DNA of 64,000 nucleotides from Siderastrea siderea (lineage: Eukaryota; Cnidaria; Anthozoa; Scleractinia; Rhizangiidae): NCBI GenBank assembly GCA_964030785.1, contig OZ034971.1:41171804-41235803 (forward strand), read 5' to 3'. Under the pieces are notes generated by a model. The model was given only the letters and a program-made list of their open reading frames with translations. It was not told the origin of the DNA and did not search any database. This document shows, piece after piece, positions 9,301-64,000 of the stretch. Each line of letters opens with the position of its first letter. Positions within the stretch are counted from its first letter, which is position 1. A program made the translations under genes and the position numbers.

Positions 9301-9603
9301 CTTTAAAATAACAAAAAAGAAACAATGAACAGCAAAAACAAGACATCTAACATTTTGTCGTATTCCTAAGAATTTTACATGCAAAACGTGTCTGTTTTTC
9401 CTATTTTTTCGTGAACTGAACTTCAGCTTTTTCCGCCATTTTGTTTATCTTCACCTTAGCATCTCGTACCCATTCTTCTCACCCTTTACGCCGTAGCCGC
9501 CATTTTGAATACATCTCCATCCTCGTTGGAGACACGTGATCTGCTGTGTGCCAGGGTCTTCTCCCGAACCGCCGCCATTTTGAAAAGCAAGAAGACCCTG
9601 GGG
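6377..9603. mobile_element. 3.2-kb fold-back element with about 1-kb inverted repeats, replacing the 5' end of copy B
   Basis: The left arm (6377 to about 7390) and right arm (about 8520 to 9603) are inverted copies with scattered mismatches and a ~100-nt length difference. Both outer ends read CCCCAGGGTCTTCT and hold an inner copy of AGAAGACCCTGG, so each end is itself a small hairpin. The arms carry repeated AAAATGGCGGC-type motifs. The ORFs at 6696-6896 (+) and 9100-9384 (-) are mirror copies of the same arm sequence and show no recognisable domain. The centre (7425-7860) is a minisatellite. I see no transposase, so this is probably a non-autonomous fold-back or Polinton-unrelated TIR element. 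Confidence 0.75.
7425..7860. repeat. Minisatellite with ACAACTGACCGAGTAATAC-like unit
   Basis: About twenty degenerate units of 18-20 bp, consensus close to CACAACTGACCGAGTAATA, in the loop of the fold-back element. Several frames stay open across it only because of the periodicity; I therefore call no gene. Confidence 0.8.
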
Positions 9604-10484
9604 AAATTGCAAGCGACTTTCAAGCAGACGACAAAGAAAAGTAAGAGGAATTTTAAGCTGACTCTGAAAAACATGGGATCCGGAAGAAATTTTGTCTTTG
9701 TCATCCGATGTGTGTAACCTCTTTCATTCCAACATCAAATGCTAAGTTATATAATAGAACCTTTTCATTTTCAGTAACCTTTCATGTGATTCTGTTATTT
9801 GTTTTTTCCAAAATGTAACATTGTTTTTCGAAAAAAAAAGCAAAAAAAATTGTATTAGTTCTTTTCTTAAGAGCTGCACATCGTCTTTTTTGTCAAATAC
9901 TCAGTTTTTGCTCATGTTAAGCTAGGTGCCGATGTAAACCAATTTTAAGGCCATATAATGAGAATTATCTTCTCTCGCAACAAAAAATAGAAGACAGTTC
10001 AGTTTTTAAAACGCCAAGCAAACTTTGATGTTGATTTTTGCGTATTTTTGACAGTGACACTGACTTTGTAGATGAAGATGAGAACTCGGGTGAGGACAAA
10101 CTAGCTGAAGATGAAGATGCAGATAGTGAAGGTGAAAATGACGAGGCTCAAGATAATAATACAGAAGATGAAGATGAAAACGCTGATGATGAAGACGAAG
10201 AAGATAATACAGAAGAAGATGAGGATGATTTGTCCAGTCCAGTGGAGAAGTCATCAGGTCCAATCCGTTTTCGTTTGCGTCCGCGTCGCATAATCCGCCG
10301 AATCATCCGTCGTGGAGGACGCCGCGGTGGACGGCGGGGAGGACGTCGAGGAGGACGGCGTGGAGGACGCCGCGGAGGACGTCGTGGGGGACGCCGTGGA
10401 GGACGCCGTGGAGGACACCGTGGTGGACGCCGTGGAGGACGCCGTGGAGGACGCCGTGGAGGACGCCGTGGTGGACGCCGTTAG
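9602..10484 (+). pseudogene. RRGG-peptide precursor copy B, 5'-truncated
   Basis: Only the last ~39 nt of the first coding exon remain (9602-9640, encoding EIASDFQADDKE), followed by a normal donor (9641) and a 414-nt intron. Exon 2 (10055-10484) is fully open: an acidic block of about 60 residues, then PIRFRLRPRRIIRRIIRR and 14 RRGG units (one reads HRGG), ending in RR and a stop. The promoter, start codon and signal peptide have been replaced by the inverted-repeat element. In the gene frame a TGA lies about 60 nt upstream inside the element with no ATG between. Copy B also lacks the DENENA segment before LSSPVEK and the RGRRRG tail. It is a pseudogene unless a distant exon in the element or beyond splices in. 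Its open exon 2 suggests that the damage is recent. Confidence 0.85.
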
Positions 10485-30811: not shown

Positions 30812-30819
30812 TATAAAAG
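30812..30819 (+). promoter_or_regulatory. TATA box of copy C
   Basis: TATAAAAG 46 nt upstream of the ATG, in TTTATCCAAACATATAAAAG. The proximal promoter back to a GCCAATAAC motif (about 30724) is conserved in copies A and E. Confidence 0.85.
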
Positions 30820-30864: not shown

Positions 30865-31885
30865 ATGAAGACATTGATCCTCTTAGCTCTGTTTGGCTTA
30901 GTGCTGACCGTGGGCTTGGCTCTTCCATTGAGTGAAGATAAAAGTGAAGTAAAGAATCCTGAACTGAAGGAAATTGGAAGTGACTTTCAAGCAGAAAACA
31001 AAGAAAAGTAAGAGAAACTTTTAGCTGAAAACTAATTGACGATAACAACGCAAAAGTTTGGACGAAAAAAGTCACATTCCAAACCTGATATTAAGTCAAA
31101 TATTATATTATGTCATAGAACATCTTTTCAATTTCAGTAGTTCTTCATGTGATGCTGTTAGTTGTTTTTTCAAAATGTAACTTGAATTTTCGAAAACTTG
31201 AAAAAGGTCTGTATAAGCTCTTCCCTAATGGGCTGCAAAGCTATTTTTTTAGTCAAATACTTCTATTCCTGTTAAGCTAATTGCCGATATTACTCGATTG
31301 TAACGCCATATAATGGGAATTATCTTCTCTCACAACAAATAAATAGTAGAGGATTCATTTTTTAAAACGTTCAGCAAACTTCGATGTTGATTTTTGCATA
31401 TTTTCGGCAGTGACATTGACTTCGACCATGAAGATGAGGACTCGGATGAGGACGAACTGGCTGAAGATGAAGATGTAGACAATGAAGATGAAAATGACGA
31501 GAACCAAGATAACAATGAAGAAGAGGAAGATGAAAACGTTGATGATGAAGACGAAGAAGATAATATAGGAGAAGATGAGGATGATTTAGACGAGAATGAG
31601 AACGCTTTGTCCAGTCCAGTGGACAAGTCATCAGATCCGATCCGTTTTCGTTTTCGTCCGCGTCGCATAATCCGCCGAATCATCCGTCGTGGTGGACGGC
31701 GGGGAGGACGTCGAGGAGGACGGCGTGGAGGACGCCGCGGAGGACGGCGTGGGGGACGGCGTGGGGGACGGCGTGGGGGACGGCGTGGGGGACGCCGTGG
31801 TGGACGCCGTGGAGGACGCCGTGGAGGACGCCGTGGTGGACGCCGTGGAGGACGCCGTGGAGGACGAGGACGTAGACGCGGTTAG
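30865..31885 (+). CDS. Secreted acidic/RRGG-repeat precursor, copy C (intact)
   Basis: Two coding exons: 30865-31007 (donor GTAAGAG) and 31411-31885 (acceptor TTTTCGGCAG), phase 2, giving 205 residues. Residues 1-19 (MKTLILLALFGLVLTVGLA) form a signal peptide. Residues 20-47 are a short pro-segment. Residues 48-116 are dominated by Asp/Glu, about 43 of them. LSSPVDKSSDP leads into IRFRFRPRRIIRR with a furin-type RPRR at 130-133. Fifteen RRGG units fill 140-199, and RGRRRG ends the chain. About 41 arginines nearly match the acidic residues. This layout of signal, anionic pro-part and cationic C-terminus is that of cnidarian antimicrobial precursors such as arminins, but no sequence homology is claimed. 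Alternatives are a nucleic-acid-binding or mineral-matrix protein. The last intron follows the stop (donor 31911), only 25 nt downstream, so decay of the mRNA is not expected. Confidence 0.88.
31685..31864 (+). repeat. Coding 12-bp minisatellite, 15 units (copy C)
   Basis: The unit CGCCGTGGAGGA and close variants encode RRGG. Differences are almost all synonymous (CGC/CGT, GGA/GGG/GGT). As the unit is a multiple of three and has no stop in any frame, all six frames stay open, which yields spurious 'VEDA' and 'TAST' ORFs. Confidence 0.95.
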
Positions 31886-35749: not shown

Positions 35750-36545
35750 TCTCACAAGCATCCATTCTTGTAGTCTCTCATAACGATCATATAAATTTAA
35801 CACAAATGAAGACAAACTCTAACTTTTTTTGTTTAACACCTATATTTCGAGTACATTCAGTACTCTTCTTCAGGGTGACTAAAAACCGTTACAAGAATCG
35901 TATTACAATAGTCAAACTGTACATTTCAAAATTGCGTTACTAAGGACACGCGTCTTAAACGATTTTTATCGCGCGCGTACACCCGCACGTGACTTCTTGT
36001 TTTGTGCGTAAAATCCGTCATTGTCGTTGAGGCCATGGGGCGCCAAGGTCGCCAGTTTGTAAATCCTGTGATTTTATCTTTCTCGTAATTCTTTTTCTCC
36101 TTTGACATGGTCTATCAGCTGTATTTGCATGTCTTCTAAACCTCTGTGCCCGTCACTATTGAAATGTCTGTATATGAGGTCATCTTTCCCTTTTTGATTT
36201 AAACTTAAATTAACATGAGCATTGACCCTGCTTTTATGATTATTAAATCGGGTTCTAAACCTAGTCGTAGTAGATCCTACATATTGCACTTTGCACTTAG
36301 TACAATTGATCAGGTAGATTACGTTACTACAGTATATAATATTTGAATTTCTTGTAATCGGTCCCACAAACAATGTTGTCCACGGAGTCTGTAACGGAGG
36401 ATCACTAGAAGCGATCATGGAAACTTGAATAATTGAAACAGAATGTATATTAGTGACGGTCAAGTAGCCAACTCCAGTTAAGACTTTTCAGCTTTATTTG
36501 CTCAACGTTTCGGCCGTCTCGGCCTTCTTCAGCAGCGTAATGACT
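35750..36545 (-). mobile_element. Penelope-like retroelement fragment
   Basis: On the minus strand this holds the C-terminal GIY-YIG part of a Penelope-like element followed by its 3' non-coding end, which includes CACCCTGAAGAAGAGTACTG. Upstream (36475-36545) lies a second 3'-end-like stretch, CTGCTGAAGAAGGCCGAGAC followed by GGCCGAAACG. Partial tandem copies of this kind are typical of the group. The reverse transcriptase part is missing. Confidence 0.8.
35966..36463 (-). pseudogene. GIY-YIG endonuclease domain of a Penelope-like element, broken
   Basis: The frame read from 36463 downward contains NVIYLINCTKCKVQYVGSTT and RFNNHKS, the GIY-YIG core with its characteristic Cys pair and the following Arg and His. 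In the parent element this domain is the endonuclease fused behind a reverse transcriptase and nicks the target DNA. A TAA at 36076-36074 interrupts it after ELRER. The same frame then continues with KLATLAPHGLND, the usual end of these proteins, to a TAA near 35966. There is no start and no RT domain, so this is a dead fragment. Confidence 0.8.
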
Positions 36546-40620: not shown

Positions 40621-41854
40621 AGGGCTGTTTGCGTTTAGAGCTGTAGTGGTATTTTGTAAATTTTGTATATAGCTGACCAAAATAAGTTTGTTTCCAGATC
40701 TTGGTGCAAAAAGGAATAAACTTGAATAAGTGACATTCAGTATTGCCTAATCATGGTGCGTACAAGTGGCTAATTAATATAGCATTACTAATTTTTATCT
40801 TTTCTTTTTTTTTTTTTTACAGTGGATTGATGAATCAGATGGAGGTGGTTTCTGAACTGGGTGTGGTTTATCATCAAAATCACTCACTCAATCTGCATTT
40901 GTTGATTTCATTTTTCTATAACAGCTAGAAAAGTACTTTAAATCAAAATGCCTTTTGAAAGGCCTTTTATTTTTGTATGGGTTTGGTTTTCATTATTTTG
41001 GCACATCAACTTAGATGTTAACAAAAACGAAGCATACAGAAGTTAATGCACTGTTTGGACTGAAATCTTTGTAGCTTTCATATTTTTTACACCTATCTTA
41101 CTCAGTGTCACTACTTTATTGAATTCTAAAGCATGAGAGAAGCATCTTCGTAATTTATAGTGAGTTTCCACGGTTGCACTGAAAGGTCTATTTTTATACA
41201 TGTAGACTTATTGTTTTTGGCAAAAAAATTGTATTTTTGGACGCATTTTGTTTTTTAAGGTATAGTATACCAAATAAATATTCACTGTGAAATAAATTTA
41301 GAAACTAGTGATGTCTGTCTCCTTCAGCAGCAATGATTACAATGTTTTAAGTAGCCCACATGCATCTTTTATTTTAGTGTTGAAGTACACTAGAACAGTG
41401 TTACCATAACACGTGGAGGGTGTTATTCAACAAAGTTGGAAGTGTTATTTTACACAATTGTAGTGTAAAATTATCTCTGGTGTAAATTAACCTTGTTTCG
41501 GTGTGCACACAGCTGCCAGTTGTTTTACACCATTTGGGTGTCACAAGTACACAATTTTAGTGTAAAGTTATCTCTGGTGTAAATTAACCTTGTTTTGGTG
41601 TGCACACAGCTGCAAATTGTTTTACACCATTTGGTTGTCACAAGTACACAATTTTAGTGTAAACTTACCCGAATTCCGCGTCTACATAACACTGTGTTGG
41701 TGTTTTTTTACCCAATCCAAATCAGAATTGTTAGTGGTTCACACTATTGTGGTGTAAATGTACACCATGTTGGCGTTACTTTTACACTTAATTGGTGTTC
41801 ACACAGCTGCAAAAACTTACGCTTTTTCGGTGTAACCATAACACACTCACTTTT

Positions 41855-42910: not shown

Positions 42911-43690
42911 ATCAAGACATTGATCCTCTTAGCTCTGTGTGGCTTTGTACTGACCGTGGGCTTGGCTCTTCCATTGAGTGAAGATAAAGGTGAAGTAAAG
43001 AATCCTGAACTGAGGGAAATTGCAAGCGACTTTCCAGCAGAAGACATAGAAACGTAAGATAAAAATTTAGCTTAAAACTAATTGACGATAACAATGCAGA
43101 CGTTTGGACTCCTTTTCATTTTCAGTAGTTCTTCATGTGATGCTATTAGTTGTTGAGAAAGATCTGTATTAGCTCTTCCCTTATGGGCTGTACAGTCAAC
43201 TTTTTAGTCAAATACTTTTTATTGCTGTTAAGCTATGTGCTGATAGAAATCAGTTGTAAGGCCATATAATGAGAATTATCTTCTCTTGCAAGAAATAAAA
43301 AGCAGAGATGTTGATTTTTGCATATTTCGACAGTGACGCTGACTTTCAAGATGCAGATGAGGACTCAGATGAGGACGAACTAGCTGAAGGTGAAGAAAAT
43401 GAAGATGGAAACGACAAGGATCAAGATAACAATAAAGAAGATGAAGATAAAACGCTGATGATGAAGACGAAGAAGATAATGCAGGGGAAGATGAGGATGA
43501 TTTAGACGAGAATAAGAATGCTTTGTCCAGTCCGGTGGAGAAGTCAGCAGATCCGATTCACCGTCATTTTCAACCACGTCACTTAATCCGCCGATTAATT
43601 CATCGTTTCCGTGGAGCGTGGAGAACGGCGTGGGGGCGCCGTGGGGGTCGGCGTGGACGCCGTGGTCGTCGAGGACGTAGACGCGGTTAG
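42911..43690 (+). pseudogene. RRGG-peptide precursor copy D, multiply broken
   Basis: Exon 1 is 42911-43053 and exon 2 is 43334-43690; splice sites and phase are kept. Four lesions are visible. The TATA box is gone (the promoter reads AAACACACCAG at 42860-42870, where C and E have AAACATATAAAAGCG). The start codon is ATC. One base is missing in the acidic exon near 43448, which leads to a TAG at 43503. The arginine part is degraded: Arg to His and Gln changes precede it, and only a few RG pairs remain instead of 14-15 RRGG units. The first intron is shorter (280 nt). Conserved intron sites and 3' exon show common descent with C and E. Confidence 0.92.
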
Positions 43691-46171: not shown

Positions 46172-46861
46172 TTACTTGCGTAGCGGTGCATGAAACAGCA
46201 ACAAATTTCTTCGTTCACAGAGAGTCTCACTGTCTTTCTTGCAAATGTTTTCCACAACTCCAAGTTGCTTTTGGAGCACTGGTCGGTTGACCACGCCGGG
46301 ACTCTCAGTCTCAGTTACGTTATGCTTATGCAGCCTTTTTTGCTTAGCTTCACCTGTCAAGTTGAGGTCAAGTTTTCGATGTTCTTCTTCAAAACGTTGG
46401 CGCCAGTGGTCAGCCGTGGTTTCTGCTACCAGGCGAGCATGGTTTGCGTCAATCAAGAAATTGATTAAGGCTGTGTGTTGACTCTTATGAAAGTTATAAA
46501 TATCCAGCGTAAATGCTTGTTGCCGACAAAGGTCATCGTCTTTTATAGATACCATTTTCATCGTTTCCTCTTCCAGCAACTTGACATGATTCACCAAGGT
46601 GCGAATTTCTTCTTGCTGTTTCTTCACTAATTTTTTCGCCTCATAAAGAGAACCTTCTAAATCTTGCAAATGTTGGATTGAGGGAATAGGGCGGTACAAC
46701 AACTCCAAGATTTGCTTGCTCTCACTTTCGCTCGTGTATTTGTAAATACACTCCAAATCTGGATATTTTTTCTTGATATCATCCAATTCTTTTTGAAGCT
46801 CTGGAACTGGTTTTCTGGTATCTTCATCAGGTTGATCGTTTTCTTTTAATTTTGTGACTAA
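46172..46861 (-). CDS. Coiled-coil protein, last exon or 5'-broken ORF; function unknown
   Basis: An open frame of about 229 codons without an early ATG. Upstream it ends at a TAG that overlaps acceptor-like AG dinucleotides (cagtcagtag), so it could be a terminal exon. A heptad-rich segment (LQDLEGSLYEAKKLVKKQQE through HVKLLEEETMKM) suggests a coiled coil. A helical part with HKSQHTALINFLIDANHARL and HWRQRFEEEHRKLDL follows, then a polar tail with two late cysteines. No known domain is recognised. It lies in DNA foreign to the duplicated unit, so it may belong to a mobile element or a retained host gene fragment. Confidence 0.45.
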   Translation of the reverse strand, partial: LVTKLKENDQPDEDTRKPVPELQKELDDIKKKYPDLECIYKYTSESESKQILELLYRPIPSIQHLQDLEGSLYEAKKLVKKQQEEIRTLVNHVKLLEEETMKMVSIKDDDLCRQQAFTLDIYNFHKSQHTALINFLIDANHARLVAETTADHWRQRFEEEHRKLDLNLTGEAKQKRLHKHNVTETESPGVVNRPVLQKQLGVVENICKKDSETLCERRNLLLFHAPLRK

Positions 46862-49888: not shown

Positions 49889-52800
49889 ATATTATCCACC
49901 TACTAAACAATTATGCTAAATCGGGACTCGCTGCTAGAGGTGACCACCCTCATGCAATGCCAGTTGACAGTCAAAACATTTTTGGCCTATGGCAATATGT
50001 CACAGTTATATTGTTGCAGCATACACACAGTATATGGTTCGTTCGGTATTTCCTTCGTATTATGCATATCATTTCAGTGTGAGAATGCAAACCACGACAA
50101 GTGTAAATATCACACCGTATTCTCGATTGTGCACTGCACGGCCTGAATTAAGAAGAACTACAAACGTAGTCCAAGAAACAGTTTCTTCAGCAGAAAGTTT
50201 CATGTGATCTGAAAATCCAACCCCATTATTTCTTTCTGAAAATCTCCAATAATAATGAAGGCCTTTAGAGGATAACTTGATGTACGTATCGGGATATAGC
50301 CCTCTGGAATTTGACTTTCATGTACACCGAGAAAAAGGCATATTTAAAAAGAGTGTCTTCAGTTAAAATTATGTCTTTAGAACTGACGTTCTGAATTTCT
50401 CCGGTAAACTGGTCTGCATTTCCGGCCAGAAACTGAGAAAGCACACGACCGACAAAAAGTAAATTTCAAACTGTTTTTCTAGTTAGTATAGCAGCATGAG
50501 TTTCTCAGAATGGAACGGAACTCGAACCCATGACGTTGGATGCTAATGCAGCAATGACATACTGTATATATCAAGCTTTGAACAACATGGAGCTAATTTG
50601 GTTCATCTCGGTAGCTACTGGAAATAAGACAGAACACTCTACAAAGAGAGCTACAGTAGCAAAACACCAGTAATTATTGCTCACAAGTATTGACTATTCT
50701 ACCTCATTAGCTCTTGTTCTCGGGTAAGAGCTACAGAGAATTAAATACCTCTTCGCTTCGAGCGTCGGTCAAATGATCTAACTAAGCCAATAGTTTTAAT
50801 TTTGCCTTAAACAAAAAATATGTGCATGTGGCAATTATATTGCTGTAAAATACAAACAATATATCAACCTTATTAATGACTAAAACAAATTGTGGTTGTT
50901 TCCTGTTTGAAACATCACTTTTATTCCAGCATTTACAGGAGTCTCAAAAACTGAAATTACGTAAAGGCTGGAACTGGACTACAACACCAAAACGCAAAAC
51001 TACTGTTGGCGCATTCAACCGCTCTACACACAGCATATACTAGTGTTTGGAAAACGATATTGGTCACCCATTATCTACTCTCGTTGTTCGTCTAATTATT
51101 ACTATGATATAATAACATTTTTATTGCTCTTTTCAACCCAAACGCTGGTCAAGCCTCAGCTAGAGAAATAGGATTGTAAACTAAAGTTTGTGGATGACAG
51201 CACAAAGGCACAAAGAAATTTACTGGGCAATGTGTCCATGCCCTGTACATACTGAACTGTTAATTATCCATGTTTTTTTTATAGAAAAAAGATATTCTTT
51301 CTGTCAGTCGATGTTGGTTGCTTCATTGAAGAAAGAGTTAAGTCTCGATTTTTTTATACATAGATATACCCCTAGGAAACAGTAGTTTTCGCCTATCGGG
51401 ACCCTTTGGTTTAAAATTGTTTGAAACTGAAAAGTTTTCAGTGTTAAAATAGTACGTTTTCGAATACTATCTTGTTTTAACATATGCATCAACACTCATA
51501 GTATCGATTGGTTTCCGATTGCTTTATTTCTGTATACTTTCTTCGTAGTATGATGTAATCAAGGCCCCTCAGCAAGCATTCCACTTTGTCTCTTATAATA
51601 ATCTCTTCGTGGGAAGTTGATTTGAAAAGCTCTCAGTCACGCAAGCCTTTGTTATTGTATATTATATGGTAGACAAAGCAGAAACATTTCACATTATTTT
51701 CAGTCAAACCGTAAGAAACCTTTTTAATTTACATCCTGTCGCACATTCAACTGGGTATAAATAATTGTCTAATTAAATACACGAACTGTTAAGGTGCAGT
51801 GAAATGAACCGTACTGAAGACTCATAGGGACTCTTAGCGGCTGAGTGGACTGCGTCATCAGGTCTCATTTGCATGTTAGAAATCTCGTGGTGTGGGTTTC
51901 TCTAAAGCTTCAAAAATTTTTCAGCCCCCAAAAGCCATTTGTTAAACATTAACCACATATTCTTAATGATACCTTTAAGATTGAAGCTGTTTAAATTAGA
52001 ACGAAGCTTCGTGTTTAGAACCTTCTCTGTTCACAGGATACAGAGCGAATTAAGACTCCCGAATTGGGGCTCCCGAGAAATGCACGCTGTTCGAGCTAAG
52101 CCCGGTTGTTCTTTACCTTCCTTTTCTGTAATTACAAGGATTTTTTGATGACGATATAGTCCAAGCTTTGTTCCCATTAAAGCTCTGAAGCTTTCGATTT
52201 AACACTGCATCGCGAGACCATCGCATTAATTTACTGAGAGACATTTTAGGAGAACGCACTCCCTAAAGAATAACTTTGGCCAGCACTTCAACGCGTTGAA
52301 TATACCTTTGGCTTTACTCGAAGTAAAACCATGAAGGTCGTCCAATTTTGAAGTGTGTAATGAGCTCAACTGCTTTCGTGCCGCCACGGGAAGGAGACAT
52401 TATGCAACAGTTACAGTCCTGCCTAATGGTCTCACAAATTTCACGACAAAAACAGAAAAAACGCACACGAATAACCGATCAATTATAACTGCAAAGAATT
52501 TCTTAAAGGCTATGATGGCAATTTAAGATCCAAACTGACTGCATTGGCGAGCAGCAGGATGTCAAATCACTGCGGAAAAGTCCTGAATTTTGATGGAATA
52601 CAAAATGGCGGCCTCGCACTCAATACTCGCGAAGCACTGTGACGTGGGTGGCTTACGGATTCTTTAATGACGACATTGCAACTTGTAATGGCTAATAAAC
52701 TCTGTCAGTTTTGCTTCCGTTCCAAGTATCTGTAGATAAGTTACCCAATCAGCGGAGATCATAATCAAGGAATCGTTAACTTGAATACCTTTTTGTTCCG

Positions 52801-53734: not shown

Positions 53735-56402
53735 TTAAATATTAAGCAAAGGCTTCCACTTCCCTTCGTGTATGTTAAGTCTGTTGTTCTTTTTAGCTAT
53801 TGCTCGTTCAATAGATTCTGTATACCTTAATTTAGCTATAAGATGAGACAGTAATGGTACATAGTTTTTCAGACGGTTTTGATAGATAATCTGTTTGCCA
53901 GCAATGATTATATGATTTAAAAGCAGCCAGTGAGGCCTCTTTTGTATAAGACCAAAAATGATGTCGCAATCGTTTAGAGAGTCAATGTCAATGTGCAAAG
54001 ACTTAACCCAAAGAACAACAGACTTCCAGAAAGCTATAGTAAATTCACAACTACATAATAGATGCTCGAGGGATTCATCTGAAATTTTACAAAAGGTGCA
54101 AAGAAGTGAGTCGACTAACCTCATTTTGTATAGTGTTTTGTTAGTAAAGATTATTCGATAAAGTACTTTATATTGAAAAGTTCTTGTTTTGGTGTCTAGG
54201 GTGACAAGGTGCGGAATCAGATAGATTGTATCCCAATCAAGATTGCAAGTAGAAAATCGAGTAGTGTATTTGACTCGTGCAGAGGGGTAGACCTGAATAG
54301 TCTCTATCTGTTTCCAGTACAGTTTTGAGGATGTAATTGAGTCAAGGCTCAGAGTATCGTCCTTCAAATTAAGAGTGAATTTAAGGGCAGTGTTTTGAGA
54401 GATAGATGGATCATCAGCTTCATCATTGGATTTAATGAGTTTTTTCCATGCAAAAGGGAGCGATTTATAAAGACCTATAAGTAGAAGATAGTCGTTGGGA
54501 TTTAGTCCATTTACTTTAAAAAAATTCCAAGGTTTGAGATTTCCATTTTTTGTCAATATGCTTCCAAGGGATATTATACCGTTAGAAGATATTTTCTTGC
54601 AGAATACGGGCTTTCCGTCAATGCGAAGGAATTGGTTGTTCCATAATACTTGTTCTAGGACATGTTCGCGAGTTGAAACAGATAAGGTTGATAGTTTGCA
54701 CCAGACTGTGAAACACTCTTTATAGAAATTTGGAAGATAGCTAGGTAAATCAGCAACACTAAAATTACAATGCAAAAGAAATTTGCCCCCGTAGTCCTTC
54801 AGAAAAAAAGACAGGATGTACTTCCAAGGGGAAATATAGTCCTGAGAATATTTTTTAAGACACATAATGCGATGTGTGTCGATTAATGTTTCAATGTGAG
54901 GCATTCTTAAACCACCGTTTTTGATAGTTTTCGATATCGATTTCAATACAGCATCGAAATTTAGTTCTTGACATTTGCGCCAGTTGTAAGTAAAATGCAC
55001 CCCTAGAATCTTGATTGGTTTATTAACTTTCTCTATATCGATATACGGAGGGTTCTCGTGATTGCTCCCCAACCATAAAGCTGCGGTCTTCTCCGCATTT
55101 AGTTTCAGACCTGAGCAGATTCCAAAGCCGTCTAGAATTATAGAAAGGCGTTGAAAGGAGTTGATTCCTTGTAAGAATGTAGTTAAGTCGTCAGCAAAAG
55201 CTGCTAATTTTATTTCTCTATTTTCAACCATAATTCCTCTAATCTCCTTATCGCAACGAATTTTGATAAGCAATACCTCCAGGGCCACGATGAAAAGATA
55301 GGGCCGACAGCGGGTCACCTTGTCTAACACCCCTGCGTACTTCAAACATTTGTGTCGCAAAGCCGTTGTTGAGGACGCAGCTTGAAATATTGGAATAAAG
55401 TGTAGAAACCCATTTAATGAAGGACTCACCAAAGTTAAAAGATTTCAAAGCTTTAAACAAAAAAGGCCAACTTAATGAATCGAAAGCTTTTTCGAAGTCG
55501 AAAGCAACCATTAGTCCAGGTAGCTGTTTGATTTTAGTGTATTCCATAATTTCGTCAATTGTCCAGTCGGAATATTTTGAGGTGATGAGATGGATATAAG
55601 TCGCATCGTCTAAGAGGCTAGAATTAAATTTCCAGTGAGAAGGGCCAAATGGTTGCTTATCTAGGCTATTTATTGTGAGAGTTATTGCCGAATGATCAGA
55701 CTTAATAGCAGGGATTATGTTTGCTTCCGTGATGTCATCTTGAATTTCTGTGCTGATGAGCCAGTAACCTAGGCGTCGTCTTATTAACGGTTTCTTTTGA
55801 GTCCACGTGTATTGCTTTTTTTCGGGGTTGCGAATTCTCCAAATGTCAATAAGATCCATTGCCGTCATTATTTCGTTAATTTTCTTAACAGAAGGTTTGG
55901 ATTCTATTCTTCCTCCTAGATTATCAAGTATAGGGTCAAGATGAGTGTTAAAGTCACCACCAATGATAATTTGACTGTTGGGGTCGGCATTCATGTTTTC
56001 TAAAGCCTCGGCAAGGCGATCAAAGAAAGGGCATTGTTCACACCTTTCCGTTGGCGCATATAAATTAACAAAAAGAAACGGTGTATCTTGAACAAGTGCT
56101 TCCACAAAGATATATCGGCCTTCGCTATCCCCCTGCACGTTCTTAATATCAATCTGAAGATCGCTGCTGAAAAGAATAAGAACGCCTTTGCTGTGAGTTG
56201 TGCCGTGCGAAAACAACATTTTGCCTAGCCATTGAAACTTCCATTGATTTTCAATTTCACGGGAGCTGTATGTTTCTTGTAGAAAAGCGATATCGACTTT
56301 TTGTTTCTTAATCCATGTAAAAATTGCTTTACGCTTATGAAAATCTCGAATCCCTCGAGCATTTAAGGACAAAAGCTTACAATTATAATTAGCGATACTC
56401 AA
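53735..56402 (-). pseudogene. LINE ORF2: endonuclease and reverse transcriptase, broken
   Basis: From 56402 down: an APE-type endonuclease with LLSLNARGIRD, AFLQETYSS, GGDFNTHLDP and SDHSAI motifs. After YTKIKQ the frame jumps directly to LPGLMVAFDFEKAFDSL, reverse transcriptase motif A, so the linker and the RT fingers (roughly 200 or more residues in intact relatives) are missing. RRGVRQGDPLSA follows; then one extra base in the G/C run at 55301-55305 shifts the frame. The second frame (to 53735) carries FADDLTTFL, the catalytic FADD box, and ends with a CTFC...EHLLCSC zinc-knuckle-like segment common in L1/Tx1 relatives. The intact protein would nick DNA and copy the element's RNA; this one cannot. 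Confidence 0.92.
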
Positions 56403-56640
56403 GTGAGGGTGTTAAAAGTAGTAGATGGAAACAAAAGGAAGTGGAGCCGAGTGAACAAAAAGAGATAATTACACTGCAAAAACTGATAAACTTATTGAAA
56501 AAACTGATATCTGGAAAAACTTTAAACACATACAAAACAAAACAAAGAAAAAAGCATAGTGTTACCCATTGCCCCAAAACAAGTTGTGTGGGCGTCATCT
56601 TCTCCAGGCGTCATGCACGCTCCGCAGAGCCGTTAAAAGG

Positions 56641-59578: not shown

Positions 59579-59586
59579 TATAAAAG
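59579..59586 (+). promoter_or_regulatory. TATA box of copy E
   Basis: TATAAAAG 47 nt upstream of the ATG in the same TTTATCCAAACATATAAAAG context as copy C. Confidence 0.85.
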
Positions 59587-59632: not shown

Positions 59633-60637
59633 ATGAAGACATTGATGCTCTTAGCTCTGTTTGGCTTTGTATTGACCGTGGGCTTGGCTCTTCCCTTGAG
59701 TGAAAATGGAAGTGAATTAAAGAATCCTGAACTGAAGGAAATTGCAAGCGACTTTCAAGCAGAAGACAAAGAAAAGTAAGAGATTATTTTAGGTTAAAAC
59801 CTATTGACGATAACAACGCAAAAGTTTGTAGGAAAAAAGTCACATTCCTAAACCTGATATTAAGTCAAATATTAAATTATATAATATAATTTCTTTTCAA
59901 TTTTAGTAGTTCTTCATGTGATGCTGTTAGCTGTTTTTCCAAAATGTAACTTGAATTTTTGCAAAATTGAAAAAGATCTGTATTAGCTCTTTCCTTATGG
60001 GCTGCACAGCCATCTTTTAGTCAATTACTTTTTATTCATGTTAAGCTAATTGCCGATATAAATCAATTGTACGGCCATATAATGAGAATTACCTTTTCTC
60101 GCGACAAATAAATTGCAAAGGGGTTCAGTTTTTAAAACTCCCAACAATCTTTGATGTTGGTTTTCGCATATTTTTGGCAGGGACACGGACTTTGACGATG
60201 AAGATGAGGACTCGGATGAGGACGAACTAGCTGAAGATGAAGATGAAGACAATGAAGACGAAAATGACGAGGATCAAGATAAAGAAGATGGAGATGAAAA
60301 CGCTGATGATGAAGAAGAAGAAGATGACGCAGGAGAAGATGAGAATGATTTAGACGAGAATGAGAATGCTTTGTCCAGTCCAGTGGAGAAGTCATCAGAT
60401 CCTATCCGTTTTCGTTTTCGTCCTCGTCGCATAATCCGCCGAGTCATTCGTCGTGGAGGACGCCGCGGGGGACGGCGGGGAGGACGTCGAGGAGGACGTC
60501 GAGGAGGACGGCGTGGAGGACGGCGTGGAGGACGTCGTGGGGGACGCCGTGGAGGACGCCGTGGAGGACGCCGTGGAGGACGCCGTGGTGGACGCCGTGG
60601 TGGACGCCGTGGAGGACGAGGACGTAGACGCGGTTAA
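59633..60637 (+). CDS. Secreted acidic/RRGG-repeat precursor, copy E (intact)
   Basis: Exons 59633-59775 and 60181-60637 (acceptor TTTTTGGCAG; intron 405 nt, phase 2) give 199 residues. There is a signal peptide (MKTLMLLALFGFVLTVGLA), then the pro-segment PLSENGSELKNPELKEIASD, where NGS is a possible N-glycosylation site absent from C. The acidic block (about 44 Asp/Glu) runs to residue 114. RFRFRPRRIIRRVIRR follows with a furin-type RPRR at 128-131. Fourteen RRGG units (138-193) and the RGRRRG tail end the chain, with about 39 arginines. No lesion is seen in promoter, start, splice sites or frame. Exon 2 on its own has no ATG in its acidic part, so simple ORF finding misses most of this gene. 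Role as for copy C. Confidence 0.88.
60449..60616 (+). repeat. Coding 12-bp minisatellite, 14 units (copy E)
   Basis: Units of CGCCGTGGAGGA type; the first are more mixed (GGACGTCGA, GGACGGCGT), the later ones more uniform. Confidence 0.95.
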
Positions 60638-61095: not shown

Positions 61096-63302
61096 AATTG
61101 AAAATCATGTATGAGTTGCATTTACTGTCTTGTTGAGTTTTCCTTTGTACGACATGTACTTATTTCCTTACCTGTTTTGCAGCTATAACTTCGTTAGGAA
61201 CTAATGCGCTAGTTTTTGGTAGCTAAGATAAACGTAAGGTTAATTAATTTACAAATTCCGTGTGATTTAAGTGCGATTATTAGAGGCAACCAAGTCGACA
61301 AAATTATTCTGACTGATCCATGAAATAGTTGCATAAAAGTTACTGTCGGGTGTAACTGCTAACATGTCACATTGAACTTTTCTCAACTACTATTTTACAA
61401 TTTTAACGCTAACAACTGGGATTGTTATGTCTTGTGCAGCTCGCGCCACGTTCACACCTTTCCGTTTGGTTTAGTTGGTGTCTTACTATTTGTTACTCAA
61501 AATGACATCTTCGATTCAATAAAAACTATAGCAATGTTTTGGTTGTAATATAGGAAAGGCATATTGCATTTTGAATCAGTATTGCTATCCTTTCTTCTTG
61601 TAAAAGTACTTGTTTTAAATTCGCGTTACCCTTATCTTACACAGTTCATTTCACTTATCGAAATCAGAGTGACAAAACAAGTTGGAGGTGATTGCTTTTC
61701 TAAGGTTCAACCCCTATTAATGTTCATTGAAAATGGTGCAAAACCATTAGTGGAAACAGCCACAGGATTCTGTGGTTTCATGATTGTTCGCCACATGTGA
61801 CGTATGAATCCAATACTTATTGCTTCGCTGTGCTTTACATCTTATCGTGATATGGTTTTCAGTTGTGCGTATAAGCTACTAAACAGTTCCATAAAGAGAG
61901 TTTAAAATGTCTTCAGCCGTCCAACCAAGAACTTGAAGCTCTTAAAAAGAGATAGAGATTAAGCATCCTATTCTAGCCTTGTAGTAATAAGAAAACTAGC
62001 AAATATTTGACGAACTTCAGGGATTTTTTCCCATTGTTAAACAGCATACGTGAAAAAGGGTGCAGAAGTCACGATAACGCTGTCCTTGTTCATGCTGCAA
62101 TATGTCATTTTTCCGGCTATTTTCCAACGTAATTCTGACAAATTATTATGGTAATATTACAACAAACTAAAATCGGCAACACACATACCCAGTATCGAGT
62201 ATCTCATAATAACATATGGACAGCAAATCAGGGTTCCAAAACATCGAAAAACAAAATCAGAATATTGCTCTCATTGTGTTTATCTCCGCGTGCACTGTAA
62301 CTTCAAACGAGACAGAAAATTACGAAGTAACCTTAACGATTAATCAATTAGTTGAATTACTTAGAAATTATGAGAACTTTGGATAAAACAGATGTGATCG
62401 GGTTCTAACTATGAATTCGGTTGAAATGTAATGAAAGTTGTCAAGCGTGTGGTATAGATTTTCACGACAATAATTGTTTTTTATTATCATATAGTGCCCA
62501 ATTACGTCCATTTCAATAGACACACTTTAATATTTCGTCCCAAGCTTCAAAAGCTAAACCCACCCAGTACAGTATAATATACGAACAGTACCCCTGGAAA
62601 GTAGATGGCTGTCATTTTAATGATCACACTTTAAAATTTAGTCCACGGACTTAAAAATTAGAACCATCTTTTTCAGGGTAATAACTTAGATCGTTCCCAC
62701 GTTTACATGTTGAGGAAGAGAAAACCTTCAGAGGTTAGGGAATAACCATTAAAAATTTCACAAACATCATCCACCTATTAAATAGTTATGCTAAATCGAG
62801 AGTCGCTGTTAGATGTGACCCCCGCCTCCCCCGCCCCCCCCCCCCTTCCTGTTCCCTAGAACTCTCAAGAACGATCCAGACGCATCCCTGAGTTTGACAA
62901 ATTCATCAGCTCTGAACTTACCGCCTTTAAAAAGCCCTTGATCCCATTACCAAGAAAGAAGAACATTTTGCTGTAACGATAAAAATGATCACCATTAAGC
63001 TGCAAGGATGCTTAGCAAATTTATGATGGCAGAAACCATTCGGTGCAACCCCGAACGTAACTATATGTGAGGGAATGACTGAAAAATATATCATATGGAC
63101 TGAGATTTTTGTTATCCCTTGACGTGTTCCAGGCGTTCGGGCTGCAGGGGCGAAGAAAAGATGGCCCTCAAGGAAAAATTGTTAATTAGGACTAGAGAAA
63201 GGGTGCGAAGGAGTTTTCTCCCCACTTCCTAGCTGCAGAGCCTGTCATTTGTTTTCCTTGCGTCCACTGCTTTTGGTTCGCGTAGGTAATCATGCAGAGT
63301 GC
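61096..63302 (+). repeat. Downstream module of copy E
   Basis: The most complete, uninterrupted copy of the 3' module; the best reference for the others. C-rich tract near 62821-62846. No gene. Confidence 0.65.
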
Positions 63303-64000
63303 CACATATTCTTAATGATACCTTTAAGATTGAAGCTGTTTAAATTAGAACGAAGCTTCGCGTGTTTGGAAACTTCTCTGTTCACAGGATACAGAGCGAA
63401 TTAAGACTCCCGAATTGGGGCTCCCGAGAAATGCACGCTGTTCGAGCTAAGCCCGGTTGTTCTTTACCTTCCTTTTCTGTAATTACAAGGATTTTGTGAT
63501 GACGATATAGTCCAAGCTTTGTTCCCATTAAAGCTCTGAAGCTTTCGATTTAACACTGCATCGCGAGACCATCGCATTAATTTACTGAGAGACATTTTAG
63601 GAGAACGCACTCCCTAAAGAATAGCTTTGGCCAGCATTTCAACGCGTTGAATATACCTTTGGCTTTACTCGAAGTAAAACCATGAAGGTCGTCCAATTTT
63701 GAAGTGTGTAATGAGCTCAACTGCTTTCGTGCCGCCACGGGAAGGAGACATTATGCAACAGTTACAGTCCTGCCTAATGGTCTCACAAATTTCACGACAA
63801 AAACAGAAAAAACGCACACGAATAACCGATCAATTATAACTGCAAAGAATTTCTTAAAGGCTATGATGGCAATTTAAGATCCAAACTGACTGCATTGGCG
63901 AGCAGCAGGATGTCAAATCACTGCGGAAAAGTCCTGAATTTTGATGGAATACAAAATGGCGGCCTCGCACTCAATACTCGCGAAGCACTGTGACGTGGGT
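63303..64000 (+). repeat. Start of the next duplicated unit
   Basis: Nearly identical to 51951-52649, base for base over about 700 nt with few differences. It joins the E flank at 'cagagtgcc|acatattc' (the paralogue at 22690 continues instead with 'tgtaatatg'). Confidence 0.9.

Follow-up and report, generated by a model that had tools for sequence, protein, structure and literature searches.

The window considered here, which is the whole 64-kb stretch of DNA that was analysed (C6:41171804-41235803, from a genome of 830.9 Mb in 402 contigs), contains two intact paralogous genes, C and E, both encoded on the forward strand and both modelled on the basis of splice motifs and open frames. Gene C is preceded by a TATA-type promoter element, TATAAAAG (30812-30819), and consists of two exons. 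Exon 1 (30865-31007) runs from the ATG at 30865 through a signal-like segment of 19 codons (30865-30921), judged by eye like the other signal peptides of this analysis, to the start of the acidic pro-part. A phase 2 intron of 403 bp (31008-31410, GTAAGA...CGGCAG) separates it from exon 2 (31411-31885), which encodes an acidic block, the linker ALSSPVDKSSDP and a cationic tail, and is closed by a TAG stop codon that ends at 31885. Within the tail, an RPRR motif (31655-31666) is followed by the amphipathic core IIRRIIRR (31667-31690) and by an array of 15 RRGG units with a 12-base period (31685-31864), and the predicted protein has 205 residues. Gene E (59633-60637) is organised in the same way, with the element TATAAAAG at 59579-59586, exon 1 at 59633-59775, an intron of 405 bp and exon 2 at 60181-60637, which includes 14 RRGG units (60449-60616); its predicted product has 199 residues.

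The first-pass annotation had described C and E as intact genes that join a signal-like segment to separate acidic and arginine blocks, and their coordinates and reading frames are confirmed. Its estimate of about 43-44 acidic residues corresponds exactly to the exon-2 block located ahead of ALSS (43 in C, 44 in E), its 39-41 arginines are the 41 of C and the 39 of E, and its C-terminal part of about 70 residues with 14-15 RRGG units is the stretch after RPRR, which comprises 72 residues with 36 arginines in C and 68 residues with 34 arginines in E, and is devoid of acidic residues in both proteins. Beyond the signal-like segment, the product of gene C contains 26 D and 27 E together with 41 R and 5 K, and that of gene E contains 27 D and 27 E together with 39 R and 6 K, with net charges of -7 and -9, respectively.

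A self-comparison of the window places C and E within a large duplicated unit that has additional copies. Copy 0 (c0) presents an intact exon 1 on the reverse strand (198-340), and its exon 2, located beyond the window (L010), ends in RRGG units followed by a long RG array. Copy A (9602-10484, forward strand) has an open exon 2 with 14 RRGG-type units, including one HRGG, and is missing the start-codon exon. Copy D (42911-43690, forward strand) is a pseudogene that has lost its ATG and its upstream TATA element, and in which the exon-2 frame is broken and the array has collapsed. Other features of the window include a 699-base stretch found twice on the forward strand at 99% identity (51953-52649 and 63302-64000), which we read as a recent duplication within the array of duplicated units; the remains of a LINE-type element on the reverse strand (53738-56411), with pieces of an endonuclease and of a reverse transcriptase that occupy two overlapping frames; a reverse-strand ORF with a GIY-YIG domain (36077-36487), perhaps from a Penelope-like element; a tandem repeat of a 97-base unit (41451-41667, 2.2 copies, 94% matches); and a reverse-strand open frame of 229 residues (46175-46861), coiled-coil-like by eye and without a Pfam match.

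A clustered family with a common pro-part and diverse tails

The two intact paralogues of the first-pass annotation turn out to be a small part of the family, as 23 intact genes were modelled, together with 13 broken or unresolved loci. When searched against its own genome, the exon-1 peptide gives at least 32 matches, 32 out of 32 being located on C6 within 0.98 Mb (41.011-41.987 Mb), and the exon-1 region as DNA gives at least 31, again all on C6. Exon 2 of gene C, searched as DNA, matches at least 51 places, 23 of them on C6 (41.01-41.81 Mb); the remaining 28, on other contigs, are weak (E 1e-13 or worse) and cover acidic-repeat parts only. The set of intact genes is composed of c0, C, E, m11, m12, m13, m15, m17, m19, m20, m21, m23, m25, m26, L043, L046, L047, L051, L016 (whose exon 1 lies in L037, across a 4.9-kb intron), L060, L061, L049/L058 and the five-exon L062/L064. 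Their exon-1 donor is GTAAG, except for GTATG in L051 and L062 and GTGAG in L049. The broken or unresolved loci include copies A and D, two loci in L009 that carry no cationic tail, L014 and L035, which contain runs of N, L018, with a deletion in the signal exon (exon 1), L022/L048 and L024/L044, both broken in the exon-1 frame, and L050, L052 and L054. The far end of the cluster (L062, L063, L064 and L065) harbours two distant relatives. In L062/L064, several short acidic phase-2 exons precede the cationic exon, an arrangement that may represent an older gene layout; in the case of L063, counted as the last of the 13 broken or unresolved loci, a cationic exon was looked for across 8.7 kb and not found.

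What the family has in common is a signal, an acidic block and a linker close to ALSSPVEKSSDPI, the latter altered in m15, m21 and L062. According to the tail that follows, the intact genes can be separated into several subfamilies. Plain RRGG tails are present in C, E, m11, m12, m13, m19 and m20, RRGG followed by (RG)n in c0, proline-arginine repeats of the type (RPI)n with RRGG in m15 and m21, and RRGG/RRVG units with GPPLPTR in m17. The tail of m25 and m26 is FLRRLFGRFRRGRGRG, whereas the HPF group (m23, L043, L046, L047, L060 and L061, with L049 as a variant) carries GRRIIRRFRRRRGRG or a close form of it with RFRF. Finally, L051 ends in GRRVIRLGRRVIRRV with RRG repeats, L016 in RRGG/GRGG units with a Cys-rich end and L062 in GRIIRGGKRIARRVGRVIRGGKR... 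Long arrays are found in the seven RRGG-clade genes and in copy 0, and non-RRGG units occur in the intact genes m15, m17 and L016, outside the RRGG clade. Tails resembling known classes of antimicrobial peptides (AMPs) include the RRGG/RG arrays, the (RPI)n repeats of two genes, PFLRRLFGRFRR, GRRIIRRFRRRRGRG...RFRF and, in one gene, FCPWICRRRCWLPRCRRCCRFRK. The combination of RPRR and RRGG, regarded at first as the mark of the family, therefore holds for some subfamilies and fails in others, whose tails are of the RPI, RFRF, Cys-rich or amphipathic kinds. The distant member L062/L064, with a tail core of 87 residues, has the KKSSAPIRFR junction in common with the family. The putative cleavage site differs from subfamily to subfamily; a cut at RPRR would leave the conserved IRFRF on the pro side, and RXRR arises from composition alone in Arg-rich tails. 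A tree built on the pre-pro sequences of 19 genes separates the HPF group from the rest with a support of 100/99, and leaves 7 of its 16 inner branches open. The introns of the RRGG clade show a divergence of 10.8%.

Across the 23 genes, net charge ranges from -25 to +20, with pro-parts of -28 to -69 and cationic parts of +18 to +52. The charges of these two parts are not significantly correlated (Spearman 0.33, p = 0.16, 19 genes), so charge balance was rejected as a design rule; the earlier description of the precursors as charge-balanced, loosely true of C and E, applies to the whole family only in a loose sense, given the spread of net charges and the lack of a significant correlation. Regarding amphipathicity, the 87-residue core of L062 has a mean hydrophobic moment of 0.86, a value reached by none of 1000 shuffles. 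Five of eight other cores also exceed shuffles at 100 degrees (p = 0.007-0.028, with C/E and m23/L043 being close kin), among them the IIRRIIRR region of gene C (p = 0.007), and the cores of c0, m25 and m17 are not significantly amphipathic at that angle. At 170 degrees, significance is reached in none of the eight.

Selection on the coding parts, and promoters

Exon 1 is only weakly constrained, with a dN/dS of 0.73 in the RRGG clade and of 0.59 in a set of 14 genes, and the acidic and linker part gives 0.31 in both. Among cationic parts, the values are 0.15 for the RRGG core, 0.16 for the RPI pair and 0.37 for the HPF group (4 genes), so purifying selection acts on all three of the tail groups tested. 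In the arrays of the seven intact RRGG-clade genes, which add up to 99 units, 104 of the 106 departures from consensus affect the third codon position, and both exceptions are found in the terminal RRRG (the last partial unit) of m19; the units of an array are not mutually independent in this count. L018, whose signal exon is broken, accumulates four departures at codon positions 1-2 within 7 units. This decay of the array is not general, since copy A, likewise without its start exon, has just one such departure in 14 units.

Promoters were examined for 19 of the 23 intact genes. Every one of them carries the TATA-type element at a similar position, and in 15 it is exactly TATAAAAG. An NF-kB-like site was found in none of the 19, and no enrichment of NF-kB, AP-1 or ATF sites was observed in this set.

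Relatives and comparable systems

The first-pass annotation did not recognise the protein. Pfam searches with six proteins (C, E, L062, L016, m21 and L047; E up to 1) gave no convincing match, and a PDB sequence search with C and the L062 tail returned low-complexity matches only. Two candidates were rejected, namely the match of m21 to Bflower in Pfam, which lies within the RPI repeats and just under the cut-off (24 versus 25 bits), and that of the L062 tail to designed switch proteins in the PDB (E 0.0011), which looks composition-driven. A full-length query against 5.8 billion proteins, in which the best 8000 candidates were scored at E <= 1, gave 11 matches. The best five of the 11 (E 1.9e-9 to 4e-7) display the same order of parts as the fly protein nemuri, and comprise P0005, which is named nemuri, one luc7-like protein 3, one hypothetical protein and two proteins from metagenome sources; five further matches are low-complexity in appearance. 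The sole clear relative among those 11 is P0007, encoded in a 4.3-kb ENA contig, which is identical to L016 in 121 of 126 aligned residues outside one array gap and provides little additional depth. In this otherwise near-identical pair, the RRGG/GRGG array is 16 residues shorter in P0007, which suggests array-length variation. When P0007 was used as the query, no relative was recognised among the best 8000 candidates, which yielded P0007 itself and 17 weak matches (E 0.046 or worse), three of them inspected at the sequence level. Residues 1-56 of C, used as a protein query, gave no match from 58 candidates, and none of 600 pattern matches in viral contigs was confirmed. Identity in the cationic part is uninformative owing to its Arg content. 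Among the titles and abstract openings listed from an open-access library, no description of the family was recognised, and the data sets of a cnidarian AMP mining study (PMC11820242) may contain such sequences.

Nemuri is similar to C and E in that it is composed of a signal peptide, a net acidic middle, an RxRR motif, then [IV][IV]R, and a cationic end rich in RRGG, and the 64-residue nemuri peptide is described in a review as killing Serratia and E. coli (PMC10059942). At the junction, P0005 (from D. teissieri) reads RARR-IVRAGRRRGGRRGG, compared with RPRR-IIRRIIRRGGRRGG in this family. The cationic parts of nemuri and of the family score above 1000 out of 1000 shuffles, whereas the score of the pro-parts (51) is matched by 618 out of 1000, so homology by descent is unsupported. 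When the signal is included with the pro-part, 16 out of 1000 shuffles score as high, a mild excess that is attributed to the hydrophobic signal. Moreover, the middle of nemuri is weakly acidic (21 acidic and 14 basic residues), whereas the acidic block described here is far stronger and belongs to a large and diverse family. We read the resemblance as architectural convergence.

Vertebrate cathelicidins combine a common pro-part with varied cationic tails, some of them rich in RG and others in Pro and Arg. Their working principle of one pro-part with diverse cationic tails is shared by this family, although the gene layout differs, consisting here of two exons (five in L062) and an acidic low-complexity pro-part, and a cathelicidin/cathelin pro-domain is absent from the Pfam matches of the six proteins searched (E up to 1). 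The cod cathelicidin is reported to resemble nemuri (PMC10059942). The likeness to cnidarian host-defence precursors proposed in the first-pass annotation matches published descriptions of the Hydra AMP families, which are characterised by a signal peptide, a bipartite charge and tandem clusters of paralogues (PMC10945409). Periculin-1 is described as having an anionic N-terminus and a cationic C-terminus (PMC11767717). By description, arminins and periculins are, like the family studied here, bipartite anionic/cationic precursors encoded in tandem clusters; unlike it, they are described without long RRGG/RPI arrays, and their genes are reportedly confined to Hydra (PMC10945409). The myticalins of Mytilus are presented as linear cationic peptides, rich in Arg and for the most part also in Pro, that bear an anionic extension of low complexity; they are encoded by a lineage-specific multigene family whose members are clustered and fall into subfamilies according to tail composition (PMC12294457). 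In that account the cationic part precedes the anionic extension, whereas the order here is reversed, with the acidic part first and the cationic part last in 23 out of 23 models. The designed AMP zyk-1 is described with an IIKKIIKK stretch (PMC9495127), of which the RRIIRRIIRR found here is an Arg analogue. Common ancestry with this family is shown for none of nemuri, the myticalins, the arminins and the cathelicidins.

Possible function and its alternatives

The overall interpretation offered by the first-pass annotation is partly supported, as the genes probably encode a family of secreted acidic/cationic proteins. The explanation that we favour, with moderate confidence, is that of a tandemly expanded family of putative secreted host-defence (antimicrobial) peptide precursors. 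According to this model, exon 1 would route the protein for secretion, the acidic pro-part, with 28-69 net negative charges, would keep the cationic tail soluble and inactive, and processing at a basic site would release a tail of roughly 40-135 residues, able to bind polyanions such as bacterial envelopes. One pro-scaffold may have given rise to several effector chemistries, including RG-rich, Pro-Arg-rich, Arg/Phe/Ile amphipathic and Cys-containing tails, by unequal crossing-over and by turnover of the repeats. In favour of this explanation are the confinement of the exon-1 matches to one cluster, the likeness of the tails to AMP classes, the amphipathic cores of L062 and of five other members, the selection on the tails together with the array changes of L018, and the precedent of nemuri. 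The AMP reading parallels the published descriptions of the Hydra AMPs and, in reversed order, of the myticalins. Points against it are the few hydrophobic residues of the pure RRGG tail, unlike classic helical AMPs, the lack of NF-kB-like sites in the 19 promoters examined, the dN/dS of exon 1 in the RRGG clade, the cores that are not significantly amphipathic, the near-intact array of copy A, the non-RRGG units of m15, m17 and L016, the variable cleavage site and the little depth gained from P0007.

A rather unlikely alternative is that these are matrix, mucus or skeletal proteins, either self-coacervating polyampholytes or molecules whose acidic block binds calcium while the Arg tail anchors them to polyanions, in both cases with a structural function instead of a killing one. 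The pairing of acidic and basic domains is known in coral matrix candidates such as Amgalaxin-like 1 from Acropora, for which an acidic region of pI 3.21 and a Cys-rich region of pI 12.39 are reported (PMC2726143), and the C and E precursors are not far from neutral. The Amgalaxin-like proteins are described, as is the case here, with a signal peptide, an acidic domain and then a basic region. However, their basic region is made of di-Cys repeats, whereas C and E contain no Cys, and galaxin-type di-Cys repeats are absent from the 23 models, in which a Cys-rich end occurs in L016 only and lacks such repeats. The tails of the paralogues are also chemically disparate (RPI, RFRF, Cys and amphipathic), a diversity that a shared function as scaffold would not require, and the accounts of coral skeletal proteomes consulted mention no such Arg-rich member. 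It is likewise unlikely that the proteins act mainly as secreted traps for nucleic acids or other polyanions, with RGG-like arrays that would catch extracellular DNA/RNA, LPS or mucin to form condensates or traps, killing being secondary. The RRGG/RG arrays, long in eight of the genes, do look like RGG RNA-binding tails, but those of the RPI and HPF kinds are not RGG-like, and the RRGG clade keeps a conserved amphipathic core adjoining the array. The weak PDB match of C to an H/ACA RNP subunit (E 0.0019) is low-complexity and apparently composition-driven, and RNP-type RGG homology was rejected.

Peptide hormone or neuropeptide precursors, cut into many short peptides at repeated basic pairs, would also present a signal-like segment, stretches rich in acidic residues and recurring basic ones. 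This origin is very improbable, given that cleavage at each RR would leave Gly-Gly only, that the RPI units carry no amidation glycine and that a conserved short unit is predicted, whereas the units found here vary by subfamily. Hardly any weight is given either to readings that involve no secreted function, be it an ordinary intracellular RGG or simple-repeat ORF or a gene on the antisense strand. Antisense to exon 2 of gene C there is an open frame of 183 residues with PPRR repeats (31330-31881, reverse strand), and comparable frames lie opposite other RRGG arrays. These frames exist because of the CGN/GGN codons, and, since the third codon positions of both strands coincide, the third-position test alone cannot pick the strand. 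The sense-strand call rests instead on exon 1, splicing, the promoter and a frame test: the sense exon 1, the splice sites and the TATA-type element recur in 19 models, all 32 exon-1 matches fall in one cluster and, among the six frames of the acidic part, dN/dS is lowest in the sense one (0.32, compared with 0.43 for the next best).

Within the host-defence explanation, a broader proposal, to which we give somewhat less than even weight, is that one lineage-specific pro-scaffold, in one cluster, may have independently yielded the main linear AMP chemistries of otherwise unrelated families, and would be to cnidarians what the cathelicidin system is to vertebrates. The chemistries concerned are RG-rich (as in nemuri and the cod cathelicidin), Pro-Arg repeats (PrAMP), amphipathic Arg/Ile/Phe (arminin/IIKK) and Cys-containing, and the cluster would then include a near look-alike of nemuri, the sleep-immunity peptide of flies. 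Published accounts list 10 cnidarian AMPs in 10 families from eight species, with several of the anthozoan ones having six cysteines (PMC11767717), and put those thoroughly characterised at around 13 (PMC11820242). If the animal is a coral, as is probable, and the peptides act as proposed, a set of 23 or more intact precursors of the linear cationic type would alter this picture of cnidarian AMPs, and the cluster would offer an example of convergence between this family and Drosophila nemuri, as well as a range of naturally occurring effector tails built on a single scaffold, useful for structure-activity work.
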